Virus record (IMG/VR): IMGVR_UViG_3300020171_000019 | Coordinates: 1 to 64,000 of that record | Source of the DNA: a virus | Length of the DNA stretch: 64,000 nucleotides | Reading direction: 5' to 3' (one strand) | Shown here: one piece after another, positions 33,439-62,466 of the stretch | Layout of the letters: the number at the start of each line of letters is the position of its first letter | Numbering within the stretch: the first letter of the stretch is position 1 | The notes under the pieces: generated by a model | Told to the model about the DNA's origin: nothing | What the model saw: only the letters and a program-made list of their open reading frames with translations | The model's database searches: none | Position numbers and translations under genes: made by a program

Positions 33439-33488
33439 GTATTATATGAAAGGAGGTTATGAAATAAACAGGATGTACACTCTGGTGC

Positions 33489-43300: not shown

Positions 43301-43690
43301 TCTCTTAATTTCGTGCAGGCAGCCAAGTATGCAGCATTGGCGGCACTTACGGGATTGGCCGCTGGTGTTGCGGGTGGATATGCAGAACGGCAACGCAGCT
43401 TGATAGACAAGCAACTGAGTGTCCCAACAGGACAGACACAAGGAGGAGGGAGTGGTGGTGGTGAAGGTATTTATGGAGGATCACGCGCCGAAACTACGTC
43501 CTTTGCCGCTGTGTCCGTCCAGAAGGAACCGAACATCACGATTGCGCCATCCGTGACAATAGAAGCCGGTCACGATGTTTTCATAGGCGAGGGCAGCGTT
43601 GAGGAATTCAAGGTTTCACTGGAGCGCGTGATGGTGCAGTCCATCAAGGACGCGATGAGCACCGGACAAATCAAGGTAGGGAGAGGATGA
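40331..43690 (+). CDS. tape measure protein
   Basis: 1119 aa, the second-longest gene of the window, directly after the chaperones. Long helical stretches and hydrophobic segments (ILEVGKAAAIIGALAVAMSY; AIMVAAGPWLLLVGALTAAG) and a Gly-rich stretch near the C-terminus (GGGSGGGEGIYGG). It sets tail length and leaves the tail at ejection. Residues about 525-610 repeat a LPKEQSIKIKTMG / IPRDKRIKLNITG / LPKEQLIKITTYG motif three times. Confidence 0.85.
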   Translation: MPPGLSRRLSLIVDMSSKAALTGLKQLQSAINAVSATAGRVGTGAATGFSALQKGASAATGAMQRLGEGIRSSWMIASIAISAVSAAIGLFINKTAAAYQQMQSATIGLRTIAKSYGYSGDEAEAAARQLEKSTNGFLDMGSAAQALKNLLGAGLDLPRATEQIKAMTEQAIFNRQTHYGLAEAVIVATEGIKNEMSIAADATGTTKNLALMWRDYAKARGLNVMELTKLQKAEAAYIGFMEEGTRSAGDFSKALGTAQGFEVMLGFAVRKTSQAIGEFSAQLKWGVANALTPYITQVRTWIEAHKEAIRAKVAEWVRSITAAIAQAIETGIKYGSMLIDWIMKNRDFILEVGKAAAIIGALAVAMSYLKSPILVSIAALLVLMAQSEVLRGVLMELAKFVNDHKGVLLTMLGMFVATQIVTSITMVTGMVGKLQFALLALATSPAVPMFVTSLVQGFAAIMVAAGPWLLLVGALTAAGVALYRMWDESNKRMKEAAKTTANMKTPIENDMTALMDMSRELQKLPKEQSIKIKTMGMTETQTTVRDYMKVLEEIPRDKRIKLNITGKSEIEASVDEHIRQLERLPKEQLIKITTYGEKEATTTAGAHLQTVLGAAAATQKAMRKPEGQRTPEEREQIGLFSAKKYGFSLTDLPVARKTPTSATKATDEQMQAMKKLRNLQAEINMEAMSGYAKEVEAIRQKREASIAEQGELQKKAGVAVTLIANTTLAEKEAATARQKLDQETLSKVRETMGEIMALGMTNTQVELANIDAVKQARIKALVETRNMLRAMAEAPGAGPEAKQRLAEFERKIPQSLAGVETVAATSKVDVVKKGKEEDKQKLVDAQKAMMDEMTTAAIAAYNRGDIADALSTGKKIENMQRVANSKQELITAMMAGESALTEYLLNEWGRQSEAHQTMLDVTKNSFMAVALVMERVGQAMFDKDVRRQLTAVNVAKMAGRAVLAEFADMIKAKLELRMKEYVLEATAAAISLNFVQAAKYAALAALTGLAAGVAGGYAERQRSLIDKQLSVPTGQTQGGGSGGGEGIYGGSRAETTSFAAVSVQKEPNITIAPSVTIEAGHDVFIGEGSVEEFKVSLERVMVQSIKDAMSTGQIKVGRG

Positions 43691-44289
43691 TGACCTGGGA
43701 TGAGGCGCAACCCTTGATCAATAGCATCGACGGCTTTCTGGGGGCACAAGAAGGGGAGTGGCTTTTTCGGCAGGTTCAGGCAATACCTGATAGTGCAGTT
43801 GTCGTGGAGATAGGAAGTCTGCGAGGGCGGTCAACGGCCTGCTTGGCTCTTGGGTGCAAAGGGACGCAAAAGAGAGTGATTGCCATTGATCCGTTTGTTG
43901 ACTGCCGGTATGACCTGGCAGGGGCGCAGTCCTACTTCGATGTCTGGCGTGGCAACATGGAGCGCATTGGGGTGATTGACCGGATTGAGTCTTTGGTTAT
44001 GGATAGTCGGCAAGCAGGCGCATTGTGGGGGCAGCGGCAAACACCAATACACTTACTTTTTGTCGATGGTTCGCATTTGAGGGATGACGTTATTGCTGAT
44101 TTCGAGGACTTCTTTCCTTGGGTTGTGGAGGGTGGGGTAGTTGCATTTCACGACATACTTAACAATTTTGTGGGGCCACAGGAAGCATGGGAAAGGTGCT
44201 CCGGACTGTTGATCAACGTCGGGATGTGTGATTCTATGATGTTCGGACAAAAACCGGCCACGAACTACGAGGGCAAGAATGGTCACTGA
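43687..44289 (+). CDS. class I SAM-dependent methyltransferase (Methyltransf_24-like)
   Basis: 200 aa overlapping the tape measure stop. VVVEIGSLRGRSTACLALG is the SAM-binding motif I, VIAIDPF motif II, and HLLFVDGSHLRDDVIADFED with GGVVAFHDI complete the O-methyltransferase-like pattern seen in sugar and cephalosporin hydroxylase-like methyltransferases. First of a run of carbohydrate and modification genes placed inside the tail operon. Confidence 0.8.
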   Translation: MMTWDEAQPLINSIDGFLGAQEGEWLFRQVQAIPDSAVVVEIGSLRGRSTACLALGCKGTQKRVIAIDPFVDCRYDLAGAQSYFDVWRGNMERIGVIDRIESLVMDSRQAGALWGQRQTPIHLLFVDGSHLRDDVIADFEDFFPWVVEGGVVAFHDILNNFVGPQEAWERCSGLLINVGMCDSMMFGQKPATNYEGKNGH

Positions 44290-44830
44290 CAGGTCTCTGC
44301 ATCGACACACCGTGGCGGATGGTTTTCTGAGACGTCATTTGCCACATGGTTCAGGAGTAGTGATTGATGTTGGAGCGAGCGAAAACCACGAATACGAAGA
44401 CAACTACCGGGCGACCTTTAAGTCATTCGGCTATGAATACAAGCCGGGATACCTTGTTGAAGGCTGGGATCTGGCGCAGAGACAAGGCTGCAAATATACT
44501 GGCATTTTCTGTTCTCACGTGCTTGAACACATTCCGAACGATGAAATAGCGGCCAAATATCTTTGGTCGATGGCAGGGAGCTTCCTGGTGGTGGTTCTGC
44601 CGATAGCCGATGAGCACATTGAATACGGGGAAGCTCGACAAGAGGAATGGGGTCATGTGCGGCGATACTCAATAGAGAGAGTGTTGTCATTGTTTCCTGA
44701 CTTGCCAGATGCCTGTGAGGTTGAGGATGTGATTTCTTTCCTTCCATCAGGGGAGTCATGTCCGTTTGACAACTGGCAAATAGAGTGCCTGTGGGTCAAG
44801 GAGGAGGATAGATGTCATTCTCGGGACTGA
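44279..44830 (+). CDS. SAM-dependent methyltransferase-like protein
   Basis: 183 aa. GVVIDVGASENHEYEDNYRA, then CSHVLEHIPNDEIAAKYLW, the xxHVLEH(I/V) motif of Methyltransf_11-type enzymes. The motif I glycines are reduced, so activity is likely but not certain. Overlaps both neighbours. Confidence 0.65.
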   Translation: MVTDRSLHRHTVADGFLRRHLPHGSGVVIDVGASENHEYEDNYRATFKSFGYEYKPGYLVEGWDLAQRQGCKYTGIFCSHVLEHIPNDEIAAKYLWSMAGSFLVVVLPIADEHIEYGEARQEEWGHVRRYSIERVLSLFPDLPDACEVEDVISFLPSGESCPFDNWQIECLWVKEEDRCHSRD

Positions 44831-45642
44831 GCCCCAACGGAGTGCCCTATACCTGTGATAGCTGGCCGGAAGACAAAACCGGCGACTTCAACTGTGCTAT
44901 CCTTGACATTGACATCACGCACAGATGCAACCTGCGATGCGACGGGTGTATGCACTACTGCAATTATGGTATCGGCGGCGATCATCCATTCGGTGAAGGA
45001 GGCCAGTGGATGCGGAATTGGGCCGGGAAAGTGAAACCGGCGCGATTCACGATTGTCGGCGGGGAGCCATTATTGCATCCAGGGTTACATGACTACATGT
45101 TGCTTGGCGCAGAACTGTTCCCGGATTCAAGGCGTCGGGTATATACGAATGGATGGTTTCTACATGCCACACTCGGAAAGTGGCTACAGGAGACCGGATT
45201 CGATCTCTACATAAGCATGTATCCTGTGTCCAGTGACAAGGTTTTGCGGCGAGATGAGGGTATCCGGAGGTTTCTGTCCGAGGTGCCACAGGACGTATCA
45301 GTGCAAGCCGTGCAGATGAAAGATCACTGGAGAAGACCGCATCTTGGCTTCGGGTCAACACTACGACCGCACAACAGCGATCCTGTAGGGGCGTGGTCTT
45401 GGTGTACCGCACGACACGCAGTCCAGTTACACGACAATCGACTCTGGAAATGCTGCGTGTCTGCATATCTGCCGATGGCCTTGGGAAAACTCGGACTTAT
45501 GGAATGTCCGGAATGGCAACCCTTCCTGGATCAACACAGCCTTGGGACAGAAGCAACATACGACGACGTGGCAGTATTCGCATTGCGCGGCGCAGAGGCC
45601 ATTTGCGAGATGTGCCCGGACGATGGATGGGGTGAGGTATGA
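44812..45642 (+). CDS. radical SAM protein with SPASM-like C-terminal cysteines
   Basis: 276 aa. THRCNLRCDGCMHYC carries the CxxxCxxC cluster motif. FTIVGGEPLLHPGLHDYM is the GGEP motif that contacts SAM. C-terminal WSWCTARHAVQLHDNRLWKC and AICEMCPDDG give the extra cysteines of a SPASM or twitch auxiliary cluster. Such enzymes perform radical chemistry on peptides, sugars or nucleosides. Its placement between methyltransferases and glycosyltransferases suggests modification of a glycan or virion peptide. Confidence 0.85.
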   Translation: MSFSGLSPNGVPYTCDSWPEDKTGDFNCAILDIDITHRCNLRCDGCMHYCNYGIGGDHPFGEGGQWMRNWAGKVKPARFTIVGGEPLLHPGLHDYMLLGAELFPDSRRRVYTNGWFLHATLGKWLQETGFDLYISMYPVSSDKVLRRDEGIRRFLSEVPQDVSVQAVQMKDHWRRPHLGFGSTLRPHNSDPVGAWSWCTARHAVQLHDNRLWKCCVSAYLPMALGKLGLMECPEWQPFLDQHSLGTEATYDDVAVFALRGAEAICEMCPDDGWGEV

Positions 45643-46373
45643 TCGTGTCGGTTGTTGTACCGGTCTGTAATGTGGATCAATTCACGGGGACGCTATTTTC
45701 CTTATCTCAACAGACGAGGATGGCTGACGAAATAGTGATGGTGATTGAGAGAAGATTGTTGGGATTGATTCCGCTGAAATGGGTTTGTAAGCAGTTGGAA
45801 CTGCCGATTGTCTGGTCTATAATCAAGGATGAGGACAGAGGGAAATCAGGCAAGCGCCGCAACATTGGAGCACGAGAGGCGAGGGGTGACATACTTCTCT
45901 TTGTAGATGACACGATTCTGCTACCAAACAATGCGATAGAACGAATGACGAGTTATTACCAGTCTGATTCATTGGCGGTATCTGCACGAATACTGTTGTG
46001 CTATGGCGACGAGGGGTGCATTGAAATGCCTCGCAAAGATGGCCTTTGTGCATGGGGGGCATACAGGCCGTGGACAAACACCTCAATGATTCAACGAGAC
46101 GTATTCTTCGACGTTGGAGCTTTTGATGAGGACGTGGATGACACAAAAGACGGCTGGGGGAACGATGATGAAGACATAACATATCGGATAATCAAAGCCG
46201 GAATTCCACACGTGATTGATACATCGGTGACTTGTATTCATCTTAACCATCCGCGGTATGCGGCTCGTGGGTGGACGGATGCAGGCAAGGCGTATTTTCA
46301 CAAGAAACACGGAATGACAGTTCCCGAAACACACCAATGGATACACGAAAGTGGACTCGTGAGGGTTGTATGA
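45639..46373 (+). CDS. family 2 glycosyltransferase
   Basis: 244 aa. MIVSVVVPVCNVDQFTGTLF is the GT-A start, GDILLFVDDTILLP holds the DxD-like metal site, and WGNDDEDITYRIIKAG the acceptor-side ED motif. It transfers a sugar from a nucleotide donor. No TM helix, so it is cytoplasmic. Confidence 0.8.
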   Translation: MIVSVVVPVCNVDQFTGTLFSLSQQTRMADEIVMVIERRLLGLIPLKWVCKQLELPIVWSIIKDEDRGKSGKRRNIGAREARGDILLFVDDTILLPNNAIERMTSYYQSDSLAVSARILLCYGDEGCIEMPRKDGLCAWGAYRPWTNTSMIQRDVFFDVGAFDEDVDDTKDGWGNDDEDITYRIIKAGIPHVIDTSVTCIHLNHPRYAARGWTDAGKAYFHKKHGMTVPETHQWIHESGLVRVV

Positions 46374-47251
46374 CTTCTTGGTTGATTCTTCTGGACAATG
46401 ACGAAAAGGGCAGCACGTCCGTCAGGCATGCACGATACATTGAACGAGTCCTTCGATCCCAGCCAAAAGAGCACTCGGTGCAACGCTTGGTGTGGCGAGA
46501 AGGGATCGTTGTTCCTGATGCTGATATTGTGATTGACATAGGTTCACGGTGCCGGATTGAGGAGATAGGGGCTAAACTGAAGATCAACTACATCGAAGCC
46601 CTCCCGGGGTATCACACTCCCCTTGATGACAAGCGATATGACCTCTACATCTCGGGTAGTCCGCAACTGGCGCAGAATGACAGATGGCACTATATTCCAC
46701 CGCCGGTTGATCCTGCAATGTTCAAAGCGGACGAGCAACACAAGACTTCATTGCCAGAGATTGACGGAGTGACATACATCGGCCAATACTATGGTATGAA
46801 GTCATACCGGAAGGACATGAACCGGCTTCAGGATTTCTTACAGGCAGCGAGCGCGATGTATCCGGTCTCGGTCTATGGAGACAACTGGCAATCAGCGCGA
46901 CCACCGTTGAGGCTGATGCACCGGGGGTACTGTGACCTGATAGACTTGTGGTCAGTGTATCGACATAGCATAGCGATCAACACAACCAAGGGTCTTGACC
47001 ATTCTTCCACGGCTTGCAATCTGCGCCCTATGGAAACATGGGCATCTGGGGGCATCCTGTGGTCTGATCCATTGCCTCCAGAGTTCGACGAATGGTATGT
47101 CCCATTGGGTGAGATAAACAAGGAAAGCCTGTGCAATGAGATCATGGAAAGGATGGAGCCACAACGAGAGGAATTTCGTCGGGTAGTTTGTGAACGATAC
47201 AACTACCGTGTGTTTGTGGATAAACTTCTGCGGCTGACACAAGAATACTGA
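46370..47251 (+). CDS. glycosyltransferase-like protein (CgeB-like)
   Basis: 293 aa, ATGA overlap. The C-terminal half, YRHSIAINTTKGLDHSSTAC followed by NLRPMETWASGGILWSD, resembles the E-x7-G donor-binding end of GT-B enzymes of the CgeB/Glyco_trans_1_2 type. The N-terminal half is a Rossmann-like domain (DIVIDIGSRCRIEEIGAKL). Confidence 0.65.
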   Translation: MTSWLILLDNDEKGSTSVRHARYIERVLRSQPKEHSVQRLVWREGIVVPDADIVIDIGSRCRIEEIGAKLKINYIEALPGYHTPLDDKRYDLYISGSPQLAQNDRWHYIPPPVDPAMFKADEQHKTSLPEIDGVTYIGQYYGMKSYRKDMNRLQDFLQAASAMYPVSVYGDNWQSARPPLRLMHRGYCDLIDLWSVYRHSIAINTTKGLDHSSTACNLRPMETWASGGILWSDPLPPEFDEWYVPLGEINKESLCNEIMERMEPQREEFRRVVCERYNYRVFVDKLLRLTQEY

Positions 47252-47260
47252 GAGGGCAAG

Positions 47261-48277
47261 ATGCGTATCGGTTTTTGGGTTGACGGCAATCGGATCGTGA
47301 CAGAATCGGACTTCCAGTCTCAACCCCTGGGAGGCACTGAGCACTCCATCTTGCGGCTGTCCCAAACACTGGCCGCACGAGGGCACGAGGTGTATCTGTC
47401 GGGGGCCACTGAAACCAGGGCAATACTTGATGGCCGTGTTGTGATTCTCCCAGCGACTTCTTTTCTGGCAATCCCCTATCTCGATGTGGTGATATGCACG
47501 AATGGATTGCATTCAATCCCGAATGCAAAGAGGGTCTTCTTGTGGTCGCACATCTACCAGTTTGATGCTCCCGATCCCGTTTCTATCTTGGATTGCGGCG
47601 GCATCGTCTATGCAAGTGAATCATATCGGGTGCTTCTGACGGAGAAATATCCGTGGCTTGAAGAGTCCAAGTGGTGGCAGATTCCCCTCGGAGTTGATAC
47701 AGCGCCAAAGACACGGCTCAAGCGGTACCCGTGGATAGCTTATGCAGCAATACCGAATCGGGGTCTCAGCGATTTATTGGCTTGGGTAGATGATTTTGTG
47801 GCCGCAGGAATTGAGAAAGTCATGGTTTACTCCGGATGGGAACTCTACTACCCATACCGCAAGGGATTAGAGGATCTTGCACCACTGGCGGAACACCCAA
47901 ATGTGCAGGTTATTGGGGCCTTGCCTTATCAGCAATTACAGAGAGAACTGTCAAGGTGCTTGATCTATTGCTACCCCTGTAATCTTTCTCAAGAGGAACC
48001 CTGGTGCCATTCTGTGCAGACTGCAATAGCCTGTGGTCTTCCGGTTGTGACGACGACTCCGAGGTGGCCGATGTCCGGGCGTGATCGTGGGCAGGTATGG
48101 TGCGGGAGCATAATCAGGAATGACCGCGAAGTGCAAGATCGCATGGTTGCGGCAGTGGCAAGACTCTGCGAGGACAAAGGATACTGGACTAAACTGCATA
48201 ACCAGGGCCAAGAAATCACACAAGAACACTCGTGGGACAAGATTGCCGAGCAATGGGAATCAGTACTCACGAGATAG
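47261..48277 (+). CDS. family 4-like glycosyltransferase
   Basis: 338 aa. MRIGFWVDGNRIVTESDF and LGGTEHSILRLSQTLAARGH are the GT-B N-terminal glycine-rich loop and helix. SQEEPWCHSVQTAIACGLPV is the GT4 E-x7-E-like donor site. Cytoplasmic retaining glycosyltransferase; substrate unknown. Confidence 0.8.
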   Translation: MRIGFWVDGNRIVTESDFQSQPLGGTEHSILRLSQTLAARGHEVYLSGATETRAILDGRVVILPATSFLAIPYLDVVICTNGLHSIPNAKRVFLWSHIYQFDAPDPVSILDCGGIVYASESYRVLLTEKYPWLEESKWWQIPLGVDTAPKTRLKRYPWIAYAAIPNRGLSDLLAWVDDFVAAGIEKVMVYSGWELYYPYRKGLEDLAPLAEHPNVQVIGALPYQQLQRELSRCLIYCYPCNLSQEEPWCHSVQTAIACGLPVVTTTPRWPMSGRDRGQVWCGSIIRNDREVQDRMVAAVARLCEDKGYWTKLHNQGQEITQEHSWDKIAEQWESVLTR

Positions 48278-48286
48278 GAGAATGGC

Positions 48287-49417
48287 ATGGATGACCTGAC
48301 ATATCTACTGCAACCAGTGTACGGATGGAATGCTCCTTGGGACGCGAGTATCCTCTTAGGCAAGATTCACGCAGATGCAGAGGCGACCTGGCACAACTCC
48401 ACCAAGGCGGGTGTTGGCACTTGGGAAGGGCAGTCCGGATCAACCACGGCGCCGCCTTACATCAGGATGGTTACAGCGCGCGCGCGGGCATATCTGACTG
48501 CACCGATGAATGATCTCTTTCGGGATCGCGTGCATCAGGCTTGTGACTATCTCGTATCGGTCCAGCAACCGGACGGGCGATGGGAATCCACGAGTACGAC
48601 AGGGGCAGGTTCGACCATTGATGATGCTTTCGACACTGCGGAAACAGGATGGTTGCTTGCCGAGGCATCCAGGTTCTTTGGTATCCCTGCATACCGCACT
48701 GCGGCCATAAAGGCGGCGCAATGGCAGATTGCAGGGGCAGTGACGGCACAATACGCCGATCCTGAGTATTACGCGGCACACCCAGGAGATTCGCCGCTCA
48801 AGCAAGTGATGGGTTTCCAGAATGCAAACTTCGTTGGGTCCATCATTAGGCACCTGTGCGCCGCATTGTCTCACGTCACCGACCTGATGTTGCGCGACTC
48901 CATCCTGCAGGCAATCCGGGAGGCCGCCGTAGCCCTTGACAGTTGGTTGATACAGACAAACGGCATTTTTGGCACATGGCAGCACTACGGGGATTACCCG
49001 AGTGGCTTGGCTGGAGGCAGCAATGTCAAGGCAATGACATATCACGATTTGGCCGTCTCTGGACTGTTTGCGGCGTCGCCTTATATGGCCGAGACCGTGA
49101 AGCTGGAACCGAACATATACCGAGCGATCAACTACGCCATACGGCAGCAGCAGCCGAACGGGTTGACGCTGTATCGTCCTGACGGCATAGCAACCGGGCC
49201 TTATGGAGGCTGGACTGTGGCGGATGGACTTCGCACTACAGTTCGGAATCCGGTGAATCAATTCCGAGGAGCGATCTTTCTCTTTGCTCTGGGGAAAGCC
49301 TGTGATGGTGTGAACTGGCAGGGAACAGGCAAGGCGATGATGGAGCAGAGAATGGTGTTGCTGAGATTCATTGCAGCCTATCAGCGTTGGCAGTCTTGGT
49401 GGAGAGGCGGGCAGTAG
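48287..49417 (+). CDS. alpha/alpha-toroid-like protein, copy 1
   Basis: 376 aa with AGGAGAA upstream. Repeated helical pairs and the sequence YLVSVQQPDGRWESTSTTG with DDAFDTAETGWLLAEA resemble the QxxDGxW repeats of alpha/alpha-toroid folds (terpene cyclases, glycan lyases and related). It is homologous to the N-terminal half of the next protein. It may bind or cleave polysaccharide; catalytic residues cannot be assigned. Confidence 0.55.
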   Translation: MDDLTYLLQPVYGWNAPWDASILLGKIHADAEATWHNSTKAGVGTWEGQSGSTTAPPYIRMVTARARAYLTAPMNDLFRDRVHQACDYLVSVQQPDGRWESTSTTGAGSTIDDAFDTAETGWLLAEASRFFGIPAYRTAAIKAAQWQIAGAVTAQYADPEYYAAHPGDSPLKQVMGFQNANFVGSIIRHLCAALSHVTDLMLRDSILQAIREAAVALDSWLIQTNGIFGTWQHYGDYPSGLAGGSNVKAMTYHDLAVSGLFAASPYMAETVKLEPNIYRAINYAIRQQQPNGLTLYRPDGIATGPYGGWTVADGLRTTVRNPVNQFRGAIFLFALGKACDGVNWQGTGKAMMEQRMVLLRFIAAYQRWQSWWRGGQ

Positions 49418-49418
49418 A

Positions 49419-51665
49419 GTGCCAGACACCCTAACAACCCCTCCCTATGGGACACTGACCGAGTGGGATTATCACGATCTGCTGTCCCGGCTGAATACGG
49501 CGAGCGACAGCACCTGGTACAACATGACTGGAGCGGGTGCGGGGACGTGGGAGGGACAGAGTGCCACAAGCACGCCACCAGCACGAATACGGAACATTAC
49601 TGCGCGAATCAGGACGCACATGCGAGGGACGAACTCGATATACCTGATTCAGGCAAGGGCGGCGCTGAATTACTTTGTAGCACAGCAGGAGGCCGATGGA
49701 CGATGGGAATCAACAAGCTCAACATCTCCGGGATCGACAGTAGATGATGCGTTCGATACCGCCGAGGTTGTGACTGTGCTTTGGCAAGGCTATGAGTATT
49801 TCGATGACGAAACATACCATGTGGCGGCCAGGCAGGGAGCGCAATGGCTCCTGACTGGCACTGTGAGCAGCACCTATTGCGATCCCGTATACTATGCAGC
49901 ACATCCCACGGATGGGCCACTGGCACAATGCATAGGATTCAGCAATGCAAACTTCATAGGCTCAATCCTTCGGGCTATCTGTCCACTGGTTTACGAGTTA
50001 GTACTGGGAGCGGAAGCGTCGGCAACAGCAGCGGTTCAGGCATTACTTGATGTGCAGGATGCGAATGGGACATGGGCGCATTACCTTGGGTCTAGTTCAG
50101 ACACCACTAAGAGTGTTGTGTATCACGAATTGACGGCGGTGGGACTCGTTGCAGCCTATGATGACCTTTCGATGTCGGTTGCTTTGAGGGCAAACGTGAA
50201 GCACTCGATATTCCTGGCCGTGCAATATCTGATCAATCAACAGGCCAGTAGTGGCAAATTCCACTTAACCCCAGGTTCTTTTACTGAAACGGTTGCAGGC
50301 GGATGGTTACTGGCAGCAGCGATGAGATCAACATTGACGGACGCAGCGAATCAAGAGGCTGCAGCAATGGCACTCTGGGCGCTCGGGCCAGCTATGGATG
50401 CACTTGTGTGGGATTACGCTGGTGCCGTGGCAATGGAAAACAGGATGATACTCTACAGGAACATCGCGGAGTATCTGAGTTGGCAGGCTTGGTTAGGGGT
50501 AAGCGCATCAATTGGAGGAGGTGGGACGACATTGGCACAAGGCGACTTTATGCAAATGGGTGTGGCAGTTGAGATCAAAAACCCCTCATTCCGGTGGGGG
50601 ACGGAGAAAACTACTACATTGAATGGGGTATATACCTCAACAACTACGCTGAATGTTAACGCAACGACACCGACGCTGGTGCAGGTTTTCAAGGCCAAAG
50701 ACAGGATACTCGTGGGGCCTTCTACGGATACCGACAGCGCAGATACCGGGCATCAAGAGACACGACAGATAACGGCAGTAGGGGCAACGTCTTTTACGCT
50801 AGTGACTGCACTCACTTATGACTACTTCAGCACTGATCCAGTTGGTGGTATCGGCTCGAATCTGGCCGGAGGATGGACGCCTGCGGGCAATGTGGTCATG
50901 GGCGGGATCGACGGAGGAGGCAAGGACGACGACTATGCGCAAAAGATCAACTTTGGGGCCGCAACGAGTGACTATCTCGAACAGACCGGACTTGCGACAC
51001 TGGAGGTAGCCACCAAGTACCGCCTTGGATGTTACATCAAGTCGGGATTGGGTGGTGTCAATAACAAAATCCGCGTGAAGGCCCACGATGGAGCCAGTTA
51101 CTTCATTGGCGCTGCCACGTCTGTAGGGATGGATAGCAAGACAAGCTTCACCCGATACACGGATACGGGCACAACATCATCTACGTGGACTTTGCTTGGT
51201 GCTGCAGCGATCCGGACCGAATGGATGATGGGCACGCCAACAGATACGGAAATCGATTGCGTATGGCTGGAGCACGCGAAAGGGACAACGGCGGCGTCTT
51301 CTGGTTTCTACACGTTCACAGAAGTGCCTAACTTGGGCATTCAGTGGGGCAGAGAGCCACAGTTCTCATCTCGGAGACTGGCGAACAACACACTGCGACG
51401 ATATGCTTCGTCGGGCGCAGGACAGAAGACCCGGAAGCATTTCGCGGAGATGCAATTCTCATGGGCGTCACAAGCATTCTGGGATAATCTGATGGTCTTC
51501 CAGAATTGGCAGGAGCAAGGCCAACTCCTGTCCTTTCACCCCTTCATAGATGACTTGCCTCCAGTGATGGTGGGCGTAATGGACGTCATCGAAAGCAATC
51601 GGGCCAAGAAAGAACAGTGGGATCTGGGACAGCACTCCTTCACCCTCACATTCCTGGAGGTGTGA
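49419..51665 (+). CDS. alpha/alpha-toroid plus tail-domain fusion protein
   Basis: 748 aa from GTG 49419. Residues about 1-370 parallel the preceding protein (AGAGTWEGQSATSTPPARIR; ADGRWESTSSTSPGSTVDDA). Residues about 380-640 form a Thr/Gly-rich beta domain. The last about 100 residues (KTRKHFAEMQFSWASQAFWD) look like a tail-associated domain. Position after tape measure and before the tail hub suggests a distal tail or fibre enzyme. Confidence 0.6.
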   Translation: MPDTLTTPPYGTLTEWDYHDLLSRLNTASDSTWYNMTGAGAGTWEGQSATSTPPARIRNITARIRTHMRGTNSIYLIQARAALNYFVAQQEADGRWESTSSTSPGSTVDDAFDTAEVVTVLWQGYEYFDDETYHVAARQGAQWLLTGTVSSTYCDPVYYAAHPTDGPLAQCIGFSNANFIGSILRAICPLVYELVLGAEASATAAVQALLDVQDANGTWAHYLGSSSDTTKSVVYHELTAVGLVAAYDDLSMSVALRANVKHSIFLAVQYLINQQASSGKFHLTPGSFTETVAGGWLLAAAMRSTLTDAANQEAAAMALWALGPAMDALVWDYAGAVAMENRMILYRNIAEYLSWQAWLGVSASIGGGGTTLAQGDFMQMGVAVEIKNPSFRWGTEKTTTLNGVYTSTTTLNVNATTPTLVQVFKAKDRILVGPSTDTDSADTGHQETRQITAVGATSFTLVTALTYDYFSTDPVGGIGSNLAGGWTPAGNVVMGGIDGGGKDDDYAQKINFGAATSDYLEQTGLATLEVATKYRLGCYIKSGLGGVNNKIRVKAHDGASYFIGAATSVGMDSKTSFTRYTDTGTTSSTWTLLGAAAIRTEWMMGTPTDTEIDCVWLEHAKGTTAASSGFYTFTEVPNLGIQWGREPQFSSRRLANNTLRRYASSGAGQKTRKHFAEMQFSWASQAFWDNLMVFQNWQEQGQLLSFHPFIDDLPPVMVGVMDVIESNRAKKEQWDLGQHSFTLTFLEV

Positions 51666-51666
51666 C

Positions 51667-52194
51667 ATGCGAGGTGCGGCATTGGCGGTATTGGTTTGGC
51701 TGTCCTTGCTCTGTTGGTTATCTGGCTGTGGAGGCCACAAGACGACCATTGGTCTGACGGTTAGACCGGATGATCATTCCGGATCGGTGACTGTGACCGT
51801 GGAACCTGCAGGCACAACGAACAAGCCGCAGGACAGTGATGCCGATCTATTGGATAGCAACCTCGGTGAGATATACTTCGACTTTGACAGTGCCTTTCTC
51901 GGGCCAGAGTCAAAACCTGTTCTTCTGCACCATGCGAGGTTGCTTGTGAAAAACTCCGAGATGCAGTTGCGGCTTGACGGGCACTGCGACGAGCGAGGAA
52001 CAGAGGAATACAATCTGGCCCTCGGGGAACGGCGAGCACGAGCGACGAAGGACTATCTGCTCAGGTACGGTATATCGTCAATGCGGGTGTCGATTCGCAG
52101 TTATGGAGAAGAACAGCCTGTCGACCGACGGCACACAGAAGAGTCATGGGCGGCGAACAGGCGGGTTGAGTTTCACCAAGAGTGGGGGAACTGA
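51667..52194 (+). CDS. Pal-like OmpA-domain lipoprotein
   Basis: 175 aa. LVWLSLLCWLSGC is a lipoprotein signal with lipobox LSGC (Cys near residue 21). The mature part is an OmpA_C domain: IYFDFDSAFLGPESKPVL, LRLDGHCDERGTEEYNLALG, ERRARATKDYLLRYGI, ANRRVEF. The Asp and Arg that bind diaminopimelate (DGHCDERG; GERRA) are present. In bacteria Pal links outer membrane to peptidoglycan. A phage copy between tail genes is unusual. Confidence 0.85.
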   Translation: MRGAALAVLVWLSLLCWLSGCGGHKTTIGLTVRPDDHSGSVTVTVEPAGTTNKPQDSDADLLDSNLGEIYFDFDSAFLGPESKPVLLHHARLLVKNSEMQLRLDGHCDERGTEEYNLALGERRARATKDYLLRYGISSMRVSIRSYGEEQPVDRRHTEESWAANRRVEFHQEWGN

Positions 52195-55877: not shown

Positions 55878-55885
55878 GAAAACGC

Positions 55886-55914
55886 TTGACAGTATGCAAC
55901 AAAAGAATTATCTT
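55886..55914 (+). promoter_or_regulatory. sigma70-type promoter
   Basis: TTGACA 55886-55891, 17-bp spacer, TATCTT 55909-55914, in the only gap (86 bp) between the hub gene and the following glycosyltransferase. Confidence 0.65.
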
Positions 55915-55963
55915 TCATAACAAAAGCATTCCTGTCTTGCATTCTCCCGAGAAAGGATTCCGT

Positions 55964-58021
55964 ATGTCCCGATTGACAATTGATGTTCCAGGCGCTCCTC
56001 TTGATGCAGTTTGGCATATGGAGGTTGACAAGAACGGGGATGCTTGTTTGAGACTCACGACCGCACAAGGAGCAATTCCGACCACATCGGCACCTGCAAT
56101 ACGAAAGCCGGTCATGGCAGTAACAAGCGGTGGCACAACATGGGTGAATGGAACCAAGGGGATGCTGCCCGTGTTACCCATGGTGCATCCGCGCCTCACG
56201 AGCATCATCATTCTCTCCGGTGACAACCTGGACTGCCTGAATCCCTGCCTCACGAGCCTGCAACAGCAACAGACCGAAGATGCCCCGTTCGAGGTCATTA
56301 TTGTGAGCAATTCCAAACTGCCGAAAACCCTTGATGCAATGAGGGCTATGCAGTGGACATTCGACTGCTTGGTATGGCACAATACAGACCGGTTTTCATT
56401 CGCCGCCTTTAACAATCTCGCCGCGAAGAAGGCCAGAGGGGAGTATCTGCTATTTCTGAATGACGACACCAAGGCGACGCCGGGATGGTTGAGAGAGTTG
56501 CTTGTGCCGCTGGAGGCAAGTCCTGAAGTGGGAATAACCGGAGCCAGGCTATTGACGCCTGATGAAAAAATACAGCACTGTGGGATTGCGATCAATCAAC
56601 CAGGGGAACACTACTGCACCCATCCTTTCATGGGCCAGGTGAAAGACCTGCCGGCAGTGATGCATGACCGTGTGACCGATGCAGTAACGGGGGCATGTCT
56701 GTGTATCCGGCGATCCGTGTTTGACGAGCTGCACGGCTTCGATGAGCAATTTGAGCAAGCCTATTTTGAGGATACCGATCTGTGTCTACGCGCAAAAGAT
56801 GCAGGCCACAAAACGGTTTATGCTCACAAGGCCGTTGTCTATCATCATGGATCGGCTTCATTCGCCAAGGAGCGCACAACGTCGGAATACTTCACGGCAA
56901 ATATGGTGAAGTTCAAGAAGCGATGGGATACAAAAATATCGAACAACCTTTTCACGTTCACAACTCCGATGCACCGATTCCGACCGCGGAGGATGTTGCT
57001 CCGAGATGACTTCCTGAACACTGCGGGTGGTGGGGAGCGAACTGTCGGCACGTTGGCACGGGCGTATATGGGCAGGTATCAGACGTCGATACTGGCGCAG
57101 GGAGAATCTACGGTATTGAGAGATCGGATTGCCGAGAGGTTGGGTATTGATCTGTTCGCGGTGGACTTGGCTCAGGCTGTGCCGGATGAGCAACCAGATG
57201 TGTTTATGAATTGCGAGTGGGCATCCGACAAGCCGGGCATAGGTAGAGAGCGCAATCTGTTCTGGGTGATGTTTCCTCACGCGATCGGCAAGGGACAGGT
57301 TGCGATGTGGCTCAACTCCTATGACACATTGGTCGCCAATTCACAGTTTACTCAGGGTCATATCCGGGATCGGTGGGGGCGAGATAGTATCGTGATCTAT
57401 CCACCGGTTCGGTTGTTCGGATGTGACGACGTGACGAGGAAGACTCAGAGTATCGTGAGTATCGGGCGGTTCTTTCCGGCTGAGCACTCGAAGAAGCAGG
57501 ACGTGCTTGTTGAGGCGTTTCTTGGTTCTGATCTTCCTAAAGCCGGATGGGTGTTGCATTTGTGCGGCTCAGTCAAGACCGAGAATCCGCATCATATGAA
57601 ATACCTTGACGCGATCAAACAAAAGGCCGGGGATGCTCTTGATACAAGCGTCAAGTTCCATCTGAACTGCACGTCTGACGAGATCATGGGTATCACGAGG
57701 GAGGCAATCATATTCTGGCACGCGACAGGCTATGGGGAGAGCGATCCGGGCAGTTATGAGCACTTCGGGATTGCGACAGTAGAGGCAATGTCCGCAGGGT
57801 GCATTCCGGTCGTAATCAACCTCGGAGGACAACCGGAGATTGTGAAGGATGGCAAGACCGGTTTTCTGTGGAATACGCCTGCTGAGCTGATCGGCAGGAC
57901 AGAGGATATAGCGACACTGCCAGACGCGGAACGAATTGCGCTTGCAGAGGCGGCCATTTATCGGGCAGGGGCATTCAGTGAGGCGCGGTTTGTTGTCGAC
58001 CTGGAACAGCTCGGGATATAG
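55964..58021 (+). CDS. two-domain glycosyltransferase (GT2 + GT4)
   Basis: 685 aa. Residues about 75-310 are GT2: LTSIIILSGDNLDCLNPCLT, ARGEYLLFLNDDTKATPGWL (DDT metal site), FEQAYFEDTDLCLRAKDAGH (ED motif), close to rhamnosyltransferase-type enzymes. Residues about 340-680 are GT4: FLNTAGGGERTVGTLARAYM, SIVSIGRFFPAEHSKKQDVL, YEHFGIATVEAMSAGCIPVV (E-x7-E). The first 70 residues are extra. It could add two successive sugars to one acceptor. Confidence 0.85.
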   Translation: MSRLTIDVPGAPLDAVWHMEVDKNGDACLRLTTAQGAIPTTSAPAIRKPVMAVTSGGTTWVNGTKGMLPVLPMVHPRLTSIIILSGDNLDCLNPCLTSLQQQQTEDAPFEVIIVSNSKLPKTLDAMRAMQWTFDCLVWHNTDRFSFAAFNNLAAKKARGEYLLFLNDDTKATPGWLRELLVPLEASPEVGITGARLLTPDEKIQHCGIAINQPGEHYCTHPFMGQVKDLPAVMHDRVTDAVTGACLCIRRSVFDELHGFDEQFEQAYFEDTDLCLRAKDAGHKTVYAHKAVVYHHGSASFAKERTTSEYFTANMVKFKKRWDTKISNNLFTFTTPMHRFRPRRMLLRDDFLNTAGGGERTVGTLARAYMGRYQTSILAQGESTVLRDRIAERLGIDLFAVDLAQAVPDEQPDVFMNCEWASDKPGIGRERNLFWVMFPHAIGKGQVAMWLNSYDTLVANSQFTQGHIRDRWGRDSIVIYPPVRLFGCDDVTRKTQSIVSIGRFFPAEHSKKQDVLVEAFLGSDLPKAGWVLHLCGSVKTENPHHMKYLDAIKQKAGDALDTSVKFHLNCTSDEIMGITREAIIFWHATGYGESDPGSYEHFGIATVEAMSAGCIPVVINLGGQPEIVKDGKTGFLWNTPAELIGRTEDIATLPDAERIALAEAAIYRAGAFSEARFVVDLEQLGI

Positions 58022-58031
58022 GAGGGCAGAC

Positions 58032-58517
58032 ATGGGACGCAGAGAAAACCTTGATTCAATCGTAACCGAGTGGGCTCCTCGTGTGCGGGTGCCAATTGGG
58101 GTTAAGGCAGTGCCCTTGCTCAAGGCAATTCTCATGAGGGAATCTGCTTATGGGACACTGACCGAACCACGACGAGAACGGGCCTATTGTCCGGGTGGGC
58201 GATACTACAACGAAGAGCAGCGGGAGCGGTATGTCAAGTTCGGGGTAGCGGCTGCTATGAGCTACTCGGCGTTTCAAATCATGTTCCCGTTGGCCTGTGA
58301 ACTTGGATACAAGGGGATACCATCCATTCTGGGGCAGGATAGGGAGGCAGTACGGTGGGTGGTAGAGTACCTGAATGACCGGATATTCGGCAGGCAACAC
58401 GCGCAGACAGTCCTGGAGATAGCTGACGCGTACAATTCCGGAAATTGCCGGGACAGGTTTAAGCCATTGCCGTATATGCAAGCGGTGAGCAGGTTCTACA
58501 AGCAGTTTGACGTTTGA
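58032..58517 (+). CDS. lytic transglycosylase-like endolysin
   Basis: 161 aa with AGGAGGG upstream. PLLKAILMRESAYGTLTEPR places a catalytic-type Glu in ExSAxG context. FGVAAAMSYSAFQIMFPLAC fits the GLMQIMP-like region, and ADAYNSGNCRD the AYNxG motif of SLT/lysozyme-like enzymes. It would cut peptidoglycan glycan strands; no signal peptide, so export would need a holin. Confidence 0.75.
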   Translation: MGRRENLDSIVTEWAPRVRVPIGVKAVPLLKAILMRESAYGTLTEPRRERAYCPGGRYYNEEQRERYVKFGVAAAMSYSAFQIMFPLACELGYKGIPSILGQDREAVRWVVEYLNDRIFGRQHAQTVLEIADAYNSGNCRDRFKPLPYMQAVSRFYKQFDV

Positions 58518-58540
58518 CGTTTGAGGAACAGGAGGTTGAC

Positions 58541-58828
58541 ATGGAGGACATTACCGATGGCATCGTGGGGGCAGATCAAGAACCAGGCGGAAGCGATGGA
58601 GCAATTGCTGCGCTTGAGGGCCGAACTTCGAGACGCAGAACGCGACTACAACGAGGCAATCAACTCGGACCTGAAGGAACAGGCCCGACTGAAAATCCAA
58701 CACCTGAAGGGAGAGATTCAGGGGATCAGGTAACATCACGAGAAGCGGCTCTTGCACGGCTTCTAAGCAATACCACCGATCCGGGGAGAAGGAAATGCTT
58801 GCAACGAGAGATCGACACGCTGGGATAG
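58541..58828 (+). CDS. unknown small protein, overlaps another frame
   Basis: 95 aa; AGGAGG sits 5 nt before ATG 58541. The middle is Gly/Pro/Glu-rich as often seen in shadow frames, but the end (SREAALARLLSNTTDPGRRK) looks real and runs past the other frame. See 58557-58733. Confidence 0.35.
   Translation: MEDITDGIVGADQEPGGSDGAIAALEGRTSRRRTRLQRGNQLGPEGTGPTENPTPEGRDSGDQVTSREAALARLLSNTTDPGRRKCLQREIDTLG
58557..58733 (+). CDS. small coiled-coil protein in overlapping frame
   Basis: 58 aa; ATG 58557 with GGAGG 9 nt upstream. Nearly pure helix (AEAMEQLLRLRAELRDAERD). The position after the transglycosylase and before a lipoprotein recalls nested lysis genes, but there is no signal sequence. One of the two frames may be non-coding. 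Confidence 0.45.
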   Translation: MASWGQIKNQAEAMEQLLRLRAELRDAERDYNEAINSDLKEQARLKIQHLKGEIQGIR

Positions 58829-59310
58829 GTTACGCGGCAGTCTTGACTCTGTTCTGGGTCTTAGTTGGATGCGGGCAAGACGAAACGTTCGACTATGCAC
58901 CTGAACACAGACTGGTAAGCGTTAGGATGAACGCAACAGACATCCGAGACCGGGTTGTCAAGTACTACAACTTCGAGTTTGGCTTATCTTCTGATGAGCA
59001 ACCGCAGGTAAGCGCCTACGACATTTCGTTCTCCGCCTCATTCCCCACAGGGGACACACTGAAAGTGCGACAATCCGGAGCAACATCACTACATCAATCA
59101 AGCGCAACAACGCTGTCAGGCATCAAGGATATTCCACCTGCAATTACCCATGCAGAAATCCTTCGCGGCCAAGAAGCGTTTTTTGTTGTACACACTACAT
59201 GGAAACGGATAGTTAAGTGCCGGATTCGCCATGCCAATCTGCAAGACAAACCGATTGTCCTGGAATATGAACTCTATCGCGATCCAACGCCTGACCTGAC
59301 CCTCAACTGA
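58795..59310 (+). CDS. lipoprotein, possible lysis-associated
   Basis: 171 aa behind GGAGAAGGA. GIGYAAVLTLFWVLVGCGQ has a good lipobox (LVGC) preceded by a hydrophobic core. The mature part has no recognised domain. Downstream of the transglycosylase it could be an outer-membrane lysis partner or a superinfection-exclusion protein. A rearranged copy lies at 60073-60360. Confidence 0.6.
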   Translation: MLATRDRHAGIGYAAVLTLFWVLVGCGQDETFDYAPEHRLVSVRMNATDIRDRVVKYYNFEFGLSSDEQPQVSAYDISFSASFPTGDTLKVRQSGATSLHQSSATTLSGIKDIPPAITHAEILRGQEAFFVVHTTWKRIVKCRIRHANLQDKPIVLEYELYRDPTPDLTLN

Positions 59311-59324
59311 GAGAGGAGCAAATT

Positions 59325-59453
59325 GTGATCAATAGATCGTCTCTATGCTTCGCAGTGAATCTATGCATTCAGGTTGTGTGCATTCTGATAGGATTCTGTC
59401 TATTACTGACAGTGCTGTCCGAGGTGCAATTCACGATGAGGAGCATTAACTGA
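59325..59453 (+). CDS. 42-aa membrane peptide
   Basis: GTG 59325 lies behind GAGAGGAG and the TGA overlaps the ATG of the next gene (TGATG). The peptide is one hydrophobic helix (LCIQVVCILIGFCLLLTVLS) ending QFTMRSIN. Good start signal and coupling favour a real gene. Function unknown. Confidence 0.5.
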   Translation: MINRSSLCFAVNLCIQVVCILIGFCLLLTVLSEVQFTMRSIN

Positions 59454-60094
59454 TGTTTTATCGACCAATAGTAAACTCAATGTATGTCAACCCAGAAATG
59501 GGCACCGTAAACTCTGTAGAGGCACTCTATCGCTATCCGCAAACATTCGCACTTGCGCGAAGATACTGGCCATTTTCTGTTGACTGCGTGCTCGACATTG
59601 GAGATGAAACGGTTGCAGCAACTTATATGCGCAAGGCGTTTAGACTGCCGGTCTTGAGTACGCATGGCGATTTGGATAGTGATGCAATATGGCCATGTGG
59701 TCATTTCATGGTAGTATTTTGCATGGAAGTCCTGGAGCATATATGGAACCCGTTGTCCCTATTGCGCCGAATCAAAGACACGCTGAGCGATGATGGCATC
59801 CTATTACTGACTACACCCTCCGGTTTCCAGATGGATTGGGGGCCAGCACATACAGTTGAGCATGCATATGACAGATTACTGCAACTCATACATAAATCAG
59901 GTTTTATAGTAATAGAGGCAGTCGACATCAAAATACCTGTATGGTGGGGGTTATGGCATAAACGCTACGGCATTCGGCCTGCTATACGATGGGTGATCCG
60001 AAAGTTGTTCTTTGGGCCTACGCATCAACTTGGATCTACAAGAGCGTATCTACTCAAAAAAAGGAGCATAACATGCGAGTCTGCGCATACCTGA
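59453..60094 (+). CDS. SAM-dependent methyltransferase (Methyltransf_11/23-like)
   Basis: 213 aa. VDCVLDIGDETVAATYMRK is a motif I variant, MEVLEHIWNPLSLLRRIKDT the VLEHI motif, and SDDGILLLTTPSGFQMDWGP the post-motif III region. Resembles glycan-cluster methyltransferases. A C-terminal basic stretch follows. Confidence 0.7.
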   Translation: MFYRPIVNSMYVNPEMGTVNSVEALYRYPQTFALARRYWPFSVDCVLDIGDETVAATYMRKAFRLPVLSTHGDLDSDAIWPCGHFMVVFCMEVLEHIWNPLSLLRRIKDTLSDDGILLLTTPSGFQMDWGPAHTVEHAYDRLLQLIHKSGFIVIEAVDIKIPVWWGLWHKRYGIRPAIRWVIRKLFFGPTHQLGSTRAYLLKKRSITCESAHT

Positions 60095-60360
60095 TAGTCC
60101 GCAGAGATCGACGCGCTGGGATAGGCTGTGTGGCGGTCTTGACTCTGCTCTGGGTTTGGGCCGGATGTGGGCAAGACGAACCTTTCGATTTTACTGCACC
60201 GGCCATCACGTCTGTCACAGGGGACACATTGGTAGTGCGACAAGTCGGAGCAACATCAATGTATCAATCGCGTGCAACAACACCGGCAGGCATCATTGTG
60301 CACGCTACACGGAAACGGATAGTCAAGCACCGGGTTGCGCCACATCAATCCCACTTTTGA
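60073..60360 (+). pseudogene. chimeric fragment: GT2 start fused to degenerate lipoprotein copy
   Basis: Codons 1-10 are identical to the start of the 60385 glycosyltransferase (31 identical bases, 60073-60103 and 60385-60415). From 60104 the sequence follows the 58795 lipoprotein gene (DRRAGIGCVAVLTLLWVWAG, then CGQDE), with internal deletions, to RKRIVKHR. It has a ribosome site (AAGGAG) and an intact lipobox (WAGC), so a 95-aa product is possible, but it reads as a recombination product. Confidence 0.6.
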
Positions 60361-60384
60361 CCTGAACCGAGAGAGGAGCACCGT

Positions 60385-61296
60385 ATGCGAGTCTGCGCAT
60401 ACCTGATAGTCCGCAATGAGGCGGTATTGCTGCCGTATGCACTGAAGTCAATCGAATCCGTCTGTGACGAAATCTTCGTGGTGGACAATGGGTCTACGGA
60501 CGGAACTCCGGAGATTGCCAAGGCCACGTCTGACAAGGTGCGGCTTTTGTATGTGCCCGGCAAGAACGGCGGGGGTTTTGCCGACCCCGACACGCCGGAA
60601 GATATGCTGCGCAACATCGGACTGAACGCCTGTAAGGGAGGCGGGGCGGATGTCATTCTCCGATGGGACGCGGACGAAATTCTCTACGAGGGTCAGGAGG
60701 AACGAATACGAACACTGATCGAGGAGCGAAGTTACGGTGGATGGTGGTTCTGCTGTCACAGGTTTGTTGGCAGCCTGGATTGGGTGCAAGACCTACGATG
60801 GGGCGAGCCTGGGTGCAGTGAGTTGCACAAGACGATTGCGGTGGATAGGTGGGGTAGGCAGGCGTTGCATGGGAAGATCGTCTTGCTGCGGAATCACCCC
60901 AGGCTCAAATACCTGCGCAACTCGCACTACATAGGACTTCACTCCTCGGAGTACGAGACCGCGGAGCCACACCAATACCGGATATGCAATGACATCTGGT
61001 ATGCTCATCTGGAGTGGGCGCGATCGAACAAAAGGCTCTATGACAAGGCGATCCTCTACTATAACCTGATCGCCGATCCCAATGACTACGCGAGATCATG
61101 GGAGTTTCAGTCTCAGATTGACCCGGAACACACACTGAAGGAGCAACGGTTGAGACCATTCCATTCAGAACTGCCGGAAGCAATGAAAGGGCTGGTATTG
61201 CCTGTAGACCTGAAGACCGAGGAGTTCTGGGACGAACGATCGAAGATGGCACGACGGCGGATAGTAAAGCGCACCTGGAAAGGCGGGGACTGGTAG
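60385..61296 (+). CDS. family 2 glycosyltransferase
   Basis: 303 aa after GAGAGGAG. MRVCAYLIVRNEAVLLPYAL, EIFVVDNGSTDGTPEIA and VILRWDADEILYEGQ (DAD metal site) define GT2. The later region (WWFCCHRFVGSLDWVQDLRW) resembles lipooligosaccharide-type beta-glycosyltransferases. Cytoplasmic. Confidence 0.85.
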   Translation: MRVCAYLIVRNEAVLLPYALKSIESVCDEIFVVDNGSTDGTPEIAKATSDKVRLLYVPGKNGGGFADPDTPEDMLRNIGLNACKGGGADVILRWDADEILYEGQEERIRTLIEERSYGGWWFCCHRFVGSLDWVQDLRWGEPGCSELHKTIAVDRWGRQALHGKIVLLRNHPRLKYLRNSHYIGLHSSEYETAEPHQYRICNDIWYAHLEWARSNKRLYDKAILYYNLIADPNDYARSWEFQSQIDPEHTLKEQRLRPFHSELPEAMKGLVLPVDLKTEEFWDERSKMARRRIVKRTWKGGDW

Positions 61297-61297
61297 G

Positions 61298-61519
61298 GTG
61301 AGACGACCAGAGAACGAAGAAGGGGCATTTCATTGTCAGCGGAGAGAGTTGCCGACTGTTTCAATGACGGTCTCTTGGGAGTTATTCAAGCATGCCGATT
61401 TGCTGGCGGCGCGTCGCGGTGTGTCCCTGAGTAAGTTATTGCGGCAACTTCTGGAACAAGCACTGGACGAACAATCCCTTGACGACCATGAGAAGAGGAT
61501 GCATCCACCATGCGCATAG
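61298..61519 (+). CDS. ribbon-helix-helix-like small protein
   Basis: 73 aa from GTG 61298. LPTVSMTVSWELFKHADLLA, then ARRGVSLSKLLRQLLEQALD has a strand followed by two helices as in Arc/MetJ-type DNA-binding proteins. Could be a local repressor. Overlaps the next gene. Confidence 0.55.
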   Translation: MRRPENEEGAFHCQRRELPTVSMTVSWELFKHADLLAARRGVSLSKLLRQLLEQALDEQSLDDHEKRMHPPCA

Positions 61520-62466
61520 CCTCAGACGGCTTGTTTCAGTTTCCTCTCACATACGGCGATGTCCCGATTACTGATGAGTGGCGTAATGAAATCCTGTCAT
61601 ATGACATCATCCAGTGCTTGGACTACTACACATTCGGGGCCAATGCTTGCCGTGTAGGACATCGGCGGGTGGTGTGCTACGTCAATGAAAACGTCCCATT
61701 CAACTCCCAGTATGTCGGGCATGCTCTGGAAAATAAAGAGATCATCCAGAAACACGCCGTGCGGCTCGTGGCAACATCCCGGTCGGTGGTGGACTGCCTG
61801 ATGATCGAGGGAGTGCCAGCAGGAAAAATCATAGACTGTCCAATATGGACGACCCCGGCGTGTTTCAAGCCGACTTTTACGCCGACTGATGAAGAGAAGC
61901 GCATTGCTCTGCGCCGGTCTCTTGACTTACCAGACAGGCCGATGGTGCTCTATGTGGGACGACTGAGCTGGGCGAAGGGGTTGAAGATTGCTGAGGATGC
62001 GATTCGAGGGCTTGATGTGACATGGCTCCTGATTGGGGCACAAGAGAGTTACAATCCTCCCGACTGGTCTTGTTGGATTCAGCATTTGAGCACGCCGGAG
62101 GAGCTGATACCGTATTACATGGCCGCTGATGTTCTTATCCTCCCGTCCTTACCGACACCGGGATGGATTGAGCAATACGGGCGGGTGCTTGTAGAGGCTC
62201 AGGCTTGTGGCTGTCCTGTAATCTCAACAGACATGGGAGGGCCGAGAGACTTGGTTGTCAATAACGAAACGGGATTTCTTGTTCCGCCAGGGAATCCGGC
62301 CAGCTTGAGAGGAGCTATCTCGCGGGTTGTCGGAGATGGATTCCTGCGCGATCGGCTACGGAGAACAGCACTGAGCAGATATAAGCGAAAGTTTGCGACG
62401 AAGAAGATTGAGAAGCGACTGCAACACGTCTACGATCAGGTGACGGGGATTGAACCTACTTGGTAA
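61510..62466 (+). CDS. family 4 glycosyltransferase
   Basis: 318 aa. LVATSRSVVDCLMIEGVPAG, PMVLYVGRLSWAKGLKIAED (donor-domain start) and EQYGRVLVEAQACGCPVIST (E-x7-E) are GT4 hallmarks. Last + strand gene before a convergent minus-strand cluster; its end overlaps the end of the 62456 gene by 11 nt. Confidence 0.85.
   Translation: MRIASDGLFQFPLTYGDVPITDEWRNEILSYDIIQCLDYYTFGANACRVGHRRVVCYVNENVPFNSQYVGHALENKEIIQKHAVRLVATSRSVVDCLMIEGVPAGKIIDCPIWTTPACFKPTFTPTDEEKRIALRRSLDLPDRPMVLYVGRLSWAKGLKIAEDAIRGLDVTWLLIGAQESYNPPDWSCWIQHLSTPEELIPYYMAADVLILPSLPTPGWIEQYGRVLVEAQACGCPVISTDMGGPRDLVVNNETGFLVPPGNPASLRGAISRVVGDGFLRDRLRRTALSRYKRKFATKKIEKRLQHVYDQVTGIEPTW

Follow-up and report, generated by a model that had tools for sequence, protein, structure and literature searches.

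Virion proteins of the mycobacteriophages Che8, Corndog and Myrna are glycosylated by glycosyltransferases (GTs) that the phages themselves encode, and these have been proposed to act in the cytosol on capsid or tail proteins (Freeman et al. 2023, as described in PMC12363180 and PMC12619734). GTs and radical S-adenosylmethionine (SAM) cassettes lie by tail genes in the tail-fibre hypervariable region of pelagimyophages and cyanomyophages (PMC7029224), and in gtrABC serotype-conversion cassettes phage GTs also change sugars. Here we describe a cluster of GT and methyltransferase genes in an uncultured tailed phage. The stretch of DNA analyzed, hereafter the window, comprises bases 1-64000 of the linear virus record IMGVR_UViG_3300020171_000019 (76,137 bases), and the cluster occupies positions 43687-62466. 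Sugar-modifying clusters of this kind are already known from other phages, and the window cluster adds one.

The cluster resembles the pelagimyophage-type region in its GTs and radical-SAM gene by tail genes, in its origin from an uncultured phage with a probably diderm host, in its place after the tail tube and a probable tape-measure gene, and in being non-syntenic among relatives. The pelagimyophages and cyanomyophages, however, are T4-like myophages with GT8-rich sets, whereas this record carries an ANMV-1-like terminase, GT2, GT4 and CgeB-like genes, methyltransferases, toroid proteins and a diversity-generating retroelement (DGR). The mycobacteriophages are likewise tailed phages with their own GTs, but there the glycan is proven, as the two papers relate, whereas here it is predicted. 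The window cluster also has more GTs than the mycobacteriophages, plus methyltransferases, a radical-SAM enzyme and toroid proteins, and its host is probably diderm. Among the cluster open reading frames (ORFs) scanned, no Pfam match (E <= 0.1) was found for a flippase, polymerase, initiating (lipid-linked) sugar-phosphate transferase, oligosaccharyltransferase or GtrA-type protein. The cluster therefore differs from gtrABC cassettes, whose membrane proteins GtrA, GtrB and Gtr had no counterpart in the cluster genes at the same threshold and which would bring a multi-pass hydrophobic GT that was not seen here, and from host O-antigen or capsule loci, whose Wzx/Wzy, ABC exporter and initiating sugar-phosphate transferase were all missing from the scanned cluster ORFs.

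A cluster of sugar-modifying genes in the tail region

The interval 43687-62466 contains, all on the plus strand, six GT genes, two clear and one marginal methyltransferase genes, a radical-SAM gene and two toroid-like paralogs. Three of the GTs are GT2-type (counting a GT2-GT4 fusion), two are GT4 and one is CgeB-like, giving seven GT domains in total. The enzyme genes and the tail gene directly upstream are:

40331..43690, +, probable tape-measure protein, 1119 amino acids, following the tail tube gene (38351-39385); phrog_7078 match, 8e-10 (family function not known)
43687..44289, +, SAM-dependent methyltransferase (Methyltransf_24; Pfam PF13578, 5e-19)
44279..44830, +, probable small methyltransferase, marginal (Methyltransf_23, E = 0.057, under the cut-off)
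44812..45642, +, radical SAM enzyme with a C-terminal Cys cluster, SPASM/twitch-like (PF04055, 9e-5, under the curated cut-off)
45639..46373, +, GT2 glycosyltransferase (PF13641, 9e-8; PF00535, 6e-7)
46370..47251, +, CgeB-like glycosyltransferase (Glyco_trans_1_2; PF13524, 1e-5)
47261..48277, +, GT4 glycosyltransferase with a degenerate EX7E motif (PF00534, 7e-9; PHROG 2170 glycosyltransferase, 9e-7)
55964..58021, +, GT2-GT4 fusion glycosyltransferase (GT2, PF13641, 1e-13; GT4, PF00534, 2e-16; EHFGIATVE motif)
59453..60094, +, SAM-dependent methyltransferase (Methyltransf_23; PF13489, 2e-8)
60385..61296, +, GT2 glycosyltransferase with an RWDADE motif (PF00535, 1e-9; PF13704, 4e-9)
61510..62466, +, GT4 glycosyltransferase with EX7E intact (PF00534, 4e-26; PDB GT4 relatives to 1e-16)

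The Pfam matches agree with an earlier note on this DNA, made without database searches, in its GTs, its radical SAM enzyme and two of its three methyltransferases. The third, at 44279, is the marginal one; its product was read as a methyltransferase from the DVGAS and VLEH motifs. The ORFs of the CgeB-like protein and of the fusion open at 46271 and 55886, respectively, and the start context makes the ATGs at 46370 and 55964 the likely starts. The GT2 at 60385 additionally matched phrog_13126, a beta-1,4-glycosyltransferase (5e-11). None of the GT proteins has a clear membrane segment, the top 19-residue hydropathy value (2.03) lying within a Rossmann-type GT4 stretch. The CgeB-like protein also matched a fucosidase in the PDB (E 0.06), which was set aside as chance.

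The methyltransferase gene at 43687 begins within the end of the tape-measure gene. Counted from that end, the genes of the first block, which opens with six of the enzyme genes, overlap by 4, 11, 19, 4 and 4 nucleotides (nt) and are then separated by 9-nt gaps, suggesting translational coupling to the tail gene. The last three enzyme genes lie 142-290 nt apart, so that the coupling to tail genes claimed in the earlier note applies to the first block and not to these. The base composition of the cluster falls within the range of the remaining record.

We compared the density of GT domains with that in two sets of viral records. Fifty records picked by DGR reverse transcriptase contained 5 GT2/GT4 domains in 2.0 Mb, and 28 records picked by terminase large subunit (TerL) contained 16 in 0.96 Mb. 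This background of 0.0025-0.0167 GT domains per kb predicts 0.05-0.31 domains in 18.8 kb, as against the 7 observed; the comparison records are fragments and imperfect sets, and the Poisson figure ignores the natural clustering of GT genes. We conclude that the cluster is real and is part of the phage tail region.

Analogous clusters in TerL-related phages

Real GT clusters were present in 2 of the 28 TerL-related records, G013 (22.7 kb) and G002 (40.7 kb). The G013 run lies directly downstream of the major capsid gene and of a gene whose product ends in a Ser/Thr tract, and encodes GT2, GT4, CgeB-like, RGP, Methyltransf_24, Methyltransf_11, NTP_transferase and DegT aminotransferase proteins. 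The G002 cluster has two GT2 genes, a GT4, two methyltransferases and a cytidylyltransferase, and is flanked on one side by a gene with a HylP domain (PF07212) that looks fibre-like and on the other by further probable structural genes. Both thus resemble the window cluster in placing GT2, GT4, methyltransferase and, in G013, CgeB-like genes beside structural genes; the nucleotidyltransferase, DegT aminotransferase and RGP genes of G013 were not found in the window cluster. At the BLAST level, the sole homolog of the window cluster in these two was the Methyltransf_24 protein (23%, G013), so the clusters are largely non-orthologous. Judged from these sequences, a GT/methyltransferase cluster recurs among these phages but turns over fast. 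The gene set that the earlier note had proposed to look for in other phages therefore has analogues beside capsid, tail or fibre genes, and orthologous clusters occurring solely as host O-antigen loci were not found, the genome collections not having been searched with the GT genes themselves.

Possible functions of the cluster

The reading we favour, with chances about even, is that the cluster is a late-gene glycosylation module of the phage that acts on a virion protein. The enzymes would be made together with the tail proteins, and the GTs would draw activated sugars (sugar nucleotides) from the host and act successively in the cytosol on a structural protein of the tail or head surface, producing a short glycan that the methyltransferases could cap or mask. 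The toroid domain, of which one copy is free and one is fused to a probable tail protein, may bind or process this glycan at the tail tip, and the phage would likely benefit through a change in adsorption or through a shielded particle. Cytosolic action with host sugar donors is proposed because no flippase, polymerase or initiating transferase was matched and the GTs lack obvious membrane helices, and the acceptor would most simply be a virion protein because phage structural proteins assemble in the cytosol; the mycobacteriophages offer a proven precedent. Pfam scans of 40 proteins of the record, smaller ORFs excluded, yielded no nucleotide-sugar biosynthesis enzyme. The overlap of the first block with the tape-measure gene, the analogues in G002 and G013 and the enrichment over the comparison records support a virion target.

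Several observations weigh against it. In the GT4 at 47261, EX7E is without its second Glu, a residue present in both other GT4 domains. G001, the nearest relative in size (TerL 40% identical), had no GT2 or GT4 match, and the trait is therefore not conserved in the lineage. No mucin-like tract was present in the structural proteins of the window, and no acceptor was identified among them. Finally, the pelagimyophage GTs also lie beside tail genes, and the authors of that study infer that they modify the host O-chain (PMC7029224).

As the chief alternative, the enzymes might alter O-chain or capsule intermediates of the host during infection, resulting in a block to superinfection or in less sticking of released particles to debris. 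The GTs and radical-SAM cassettes of the pelagimyophage hypervariable region, located at the same place in the tail genes, were interpreted in this way (PMC7029224). That the operon encodes lipoproteins, an OmpA-like one among them, suggests a diderm host whose envelope could be modified. Cytosolic GTs are able to act on lipid-linked host intermediates. Yet the scanned cluster genes encode no GtrA/GtrB/Gtr-type membrane protein, flippase or polymerase, and expression coupled to late tail genes would come late for superinfection exclusion; we regard a host-surface target as possible, though on the unlikely side. It is improbable, in our estimate, that the region is a mosaic of independent cassettes in a tail-region hotspot, with differing targets and no single pathway. 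The presence of GT2 in just 6 of 50 records with radical-SAM relatives, which mostly lie near carbamoyltransferases and 2-oxoglutarate (2OG)-oxygenases, the duplication and insertion at a lipoprotein/GT2 boundary, and the largely non-orthologous content of G002 and G013 would fit such a mosaic; a 19-kb stretch that holds 7 GT domains along with methyltransferases, far over background, the repeated combination of GTs and methyltransferases in related phages, and the homologous radical-SAM gene within a GT run of cyanophage S-SCSM2R would not. Phage GTs are also known to glycosylate modified DNA bases (work cited in PMC12619734), and GTs acting on the phage genome in this manner would confer nuclease resistance. 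Here, however, the GTs match general GT2/GT4 models and are located in the tail module, apart from the replication genes, and the record has no thymidylate-synthase-type hydroxymethylase (PF00303), the one type at which the search was aimed, making hypermodification of DNA very unlikely.

The earlier note had proposed a single dedicated pathway that builds a methylated glycan on virion proteins. A phage-encoded GT cluster tied to tail genes is borne out by the phage operon, the record-like composition and the G002 and G013 analogues; the pathway as a single unit is not, given that no acceptor was identified, that the radical-SAM relatives are mostly unlinked to GT2 and that the role of the toroid proteins is ambiguous. 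If the virions are glycosylated, particle glycosylation, proven in mycobacteriophages, would extend to an uncultured lineage with a probably diderm host, and would involve a richer enzyme set than that of the mycobacteriophages, including methyl capping.

A still more elaborate scheme, in which the DGR varies the receptor-binding protein, the GT/methyltransferase module glycosylates virions, the tail-fused toroid acts on this glycan, or on its host counterpart, by epimerisation or trimming, and the radical-SAM enzyme is a phage-specific modifier of sugar or protein, seems to us a distinctly improbable combination.

The DGR is complete and lies outside the GT cluster, at window positions 30985-34769. 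Its target is a tail protein gene (30985-33438, phrog_5302) with the variable repeat at 33315-33431; the template repeat is at 33490-33606, and 16 of the 17 mismatches between the two repeats are at template adenines. An RT-17 RNA (RF03020, 33642-33732) and the reverse transcriptase gene (33684-34769; phrog_1423, 2e-121) follow. The closest relatives found were on one IMG/VR contig (L109; reverse transcriptase 64%, DGR target 58%), which is probably from a close relative.

The radical-SAM family

The radical-SAM protein encoded at 44812 has an intact CX3CX2C motif (C39, C43, C46) as well as C198, C214, C265 and C268, and all of these cysteines are invariant across three viruses. Its PDB matches were to the 7wzv family, which was not tied to any paper. 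Relatives were found on at least 197 viral contigs and on 6 genome contigs, 1 of them full-length, the peptide patterns of the two scans differing somewhat. The genes most often found alongside, across 80 viral loci, encode carbamoyltransferases (46 loci, PF16861/PF02543), 2OG-oxygenases and HNH proteins. Because the relatives mostly adjoin carbamoyltransferases and oxygenases and few occur with GT2, gene neighbourhood does not suffice to class the enzyme with glycan enzymes. The Synechococcus phage S-SCSM2R (PQ898602) resembles the window in that a homologous gene (31% identity) sits amid several GT genes; that run differs in its aminotransferase-type, amidinotransferase and 2OG-oxygenase genes, and its adjacency to tail genes is not established. 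The family's enrichment in viruses and its usual neighbours, carbamoyltransferases and oxygenases, suggest a viral modification chemistry that has yet to be described. A relative in Acidobacteria (L189) was considered as a clue to the host and dropped, since it has a C-terminal cupin and no clear prophage context in its ORF list; the host was not identified from it.

Toroid-like proteins and other genes of the tail operon

Interspersed with the enzyme genes are the following genes:

48287..49417, +, free-standing alpha/alpha-toroid-like protein, 376 amino acids (weak SQHop_cyclase_C and Pec_lyase matches)
49371..51665, +, toroid domain with a C-terminal part, probably tail-associated, 764 amino acids (start GTG 49419 or TTG 49371)
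51667..52194, +, OmpA-like peptidoglycan-binding lipoprotein (PF00691, 1e-18; phrog_7897, 8e-28, function not known; lipobox)
52182..55877, +, large probable tail-hub or minor tail protein, after the tape measure (phrog_1887 tail protein, E 0.025; N-terminal pattern by eye)
58032..58517, +, putative lytic transglycosylase-like protein, read by eye alone (ORF opens at 57936; no family or PDB match)
58795..59310, +, small lipoprotein, intact copy (lipobox LVGC; repeats with 60095-60360)

The 48287 product and the N-terminal half of the 49371 product are paralogs (42% identical), in line with the two alpha/alpha-toroid proteins of the earlier note; the fold itself rests on a low-confidence AlphaFold model from a two-sequence alignment (mean predicted local distance difference test score (pLDDT) 48, predicted template modelling score 0.53). 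The best structural matches of this pLDDT 48 model were glycoside hydrolase family 76 (GH76) mannanases, cellobiose 2-epimerases and GH105 (VIA-align Z 14-16 over 240-290 residues). Foldseek gave no match below E 0.001 with the model, and no sequence match to toroid glycan enzymes was obtained. Because helical-repeat models readily score high, we take the toroid fold as likely and an activity on glycans as no more than possible; domains carried on the tail that degrade or bind glycans would be an equally good reading. No relatives were detected among phages, viral contigs, genome contigs or the 28 TerL-related records, one of these scans having had no positive control. A conserved DD (112-113) is not claimed as the GH76 catalytic pair, as the alignment ranges do not put it there. 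The C-terminal part of the 49371 product had no database match, and its predicted fold (pLDDT 31) was discarded; its gene position suggests a part of the tail.

A degenerate second copy of the small lipoprotein gene, with blocks about 83% identical, occupies 60095-60360, between the methyltransferase gene at 59453 and the GT2 gene at 60385. The start region of this GT2 gene is also duplicated over 42 nt (60062-60103 versus 60374-60415, 90%), and the methyltransferase stop codon lies inside the duplicated stretch.

Candidate acceptor proteins

The earlier note had named two Ser/Thr-rich proteins as candidate acceptors. The product of 28916-30457 is indeed 25% Ser+Thr; it has no mucin-like run, and the ORF at 28017-28859, likewise without one, is richer (27%). 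The other candidate, starting at 49371 or 49419, is the toroid protein, whose first half is the toroid and which is not mucin-like (19% Ser+Thr). A protein of G013 (L103, 13882-14727), encoded beside the major capsid gene and directly before the multi-GT operon, has a long terminal Ser/Thr tract and is a strong candidate acceptor in that phage.

Phage identity and host

The window reads as a tailed-phage genome, with these landmarks:

15423-16910, TerL (phrog_38, 9e-72)
19002, portal
27035-28213, major capsid region
36814, neck protein (phrog_26, 6e-16)
38351-39385, tail tube (PF18906, 7e-9)

By TerL, the nearest annotated relative is ANMV-1 virus (38% identity), and the 74-kb IMG/VR record G001 is 40% identical. 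A diderm bacterial host is suggested by the predicted envelope-directed genes, namely the OmpA-like lipoprotein (51667), an RlpA-like protein (72427) and other lipoproteins.

Window positions 3113-14804 encode a TnpB-like protein (3113), a DNA polymerase III beta clamp (8472), an RlaP-like RNA-repair protein (11660) and a C5-cytosine methylase (13689). At record positions 66879-69576, a MoxR ATPase gene (bpMoxR, PF20030) adjoins a gene for a vWA-domain protein, an arrangement that resembles MoxR-vWA conflict systems.

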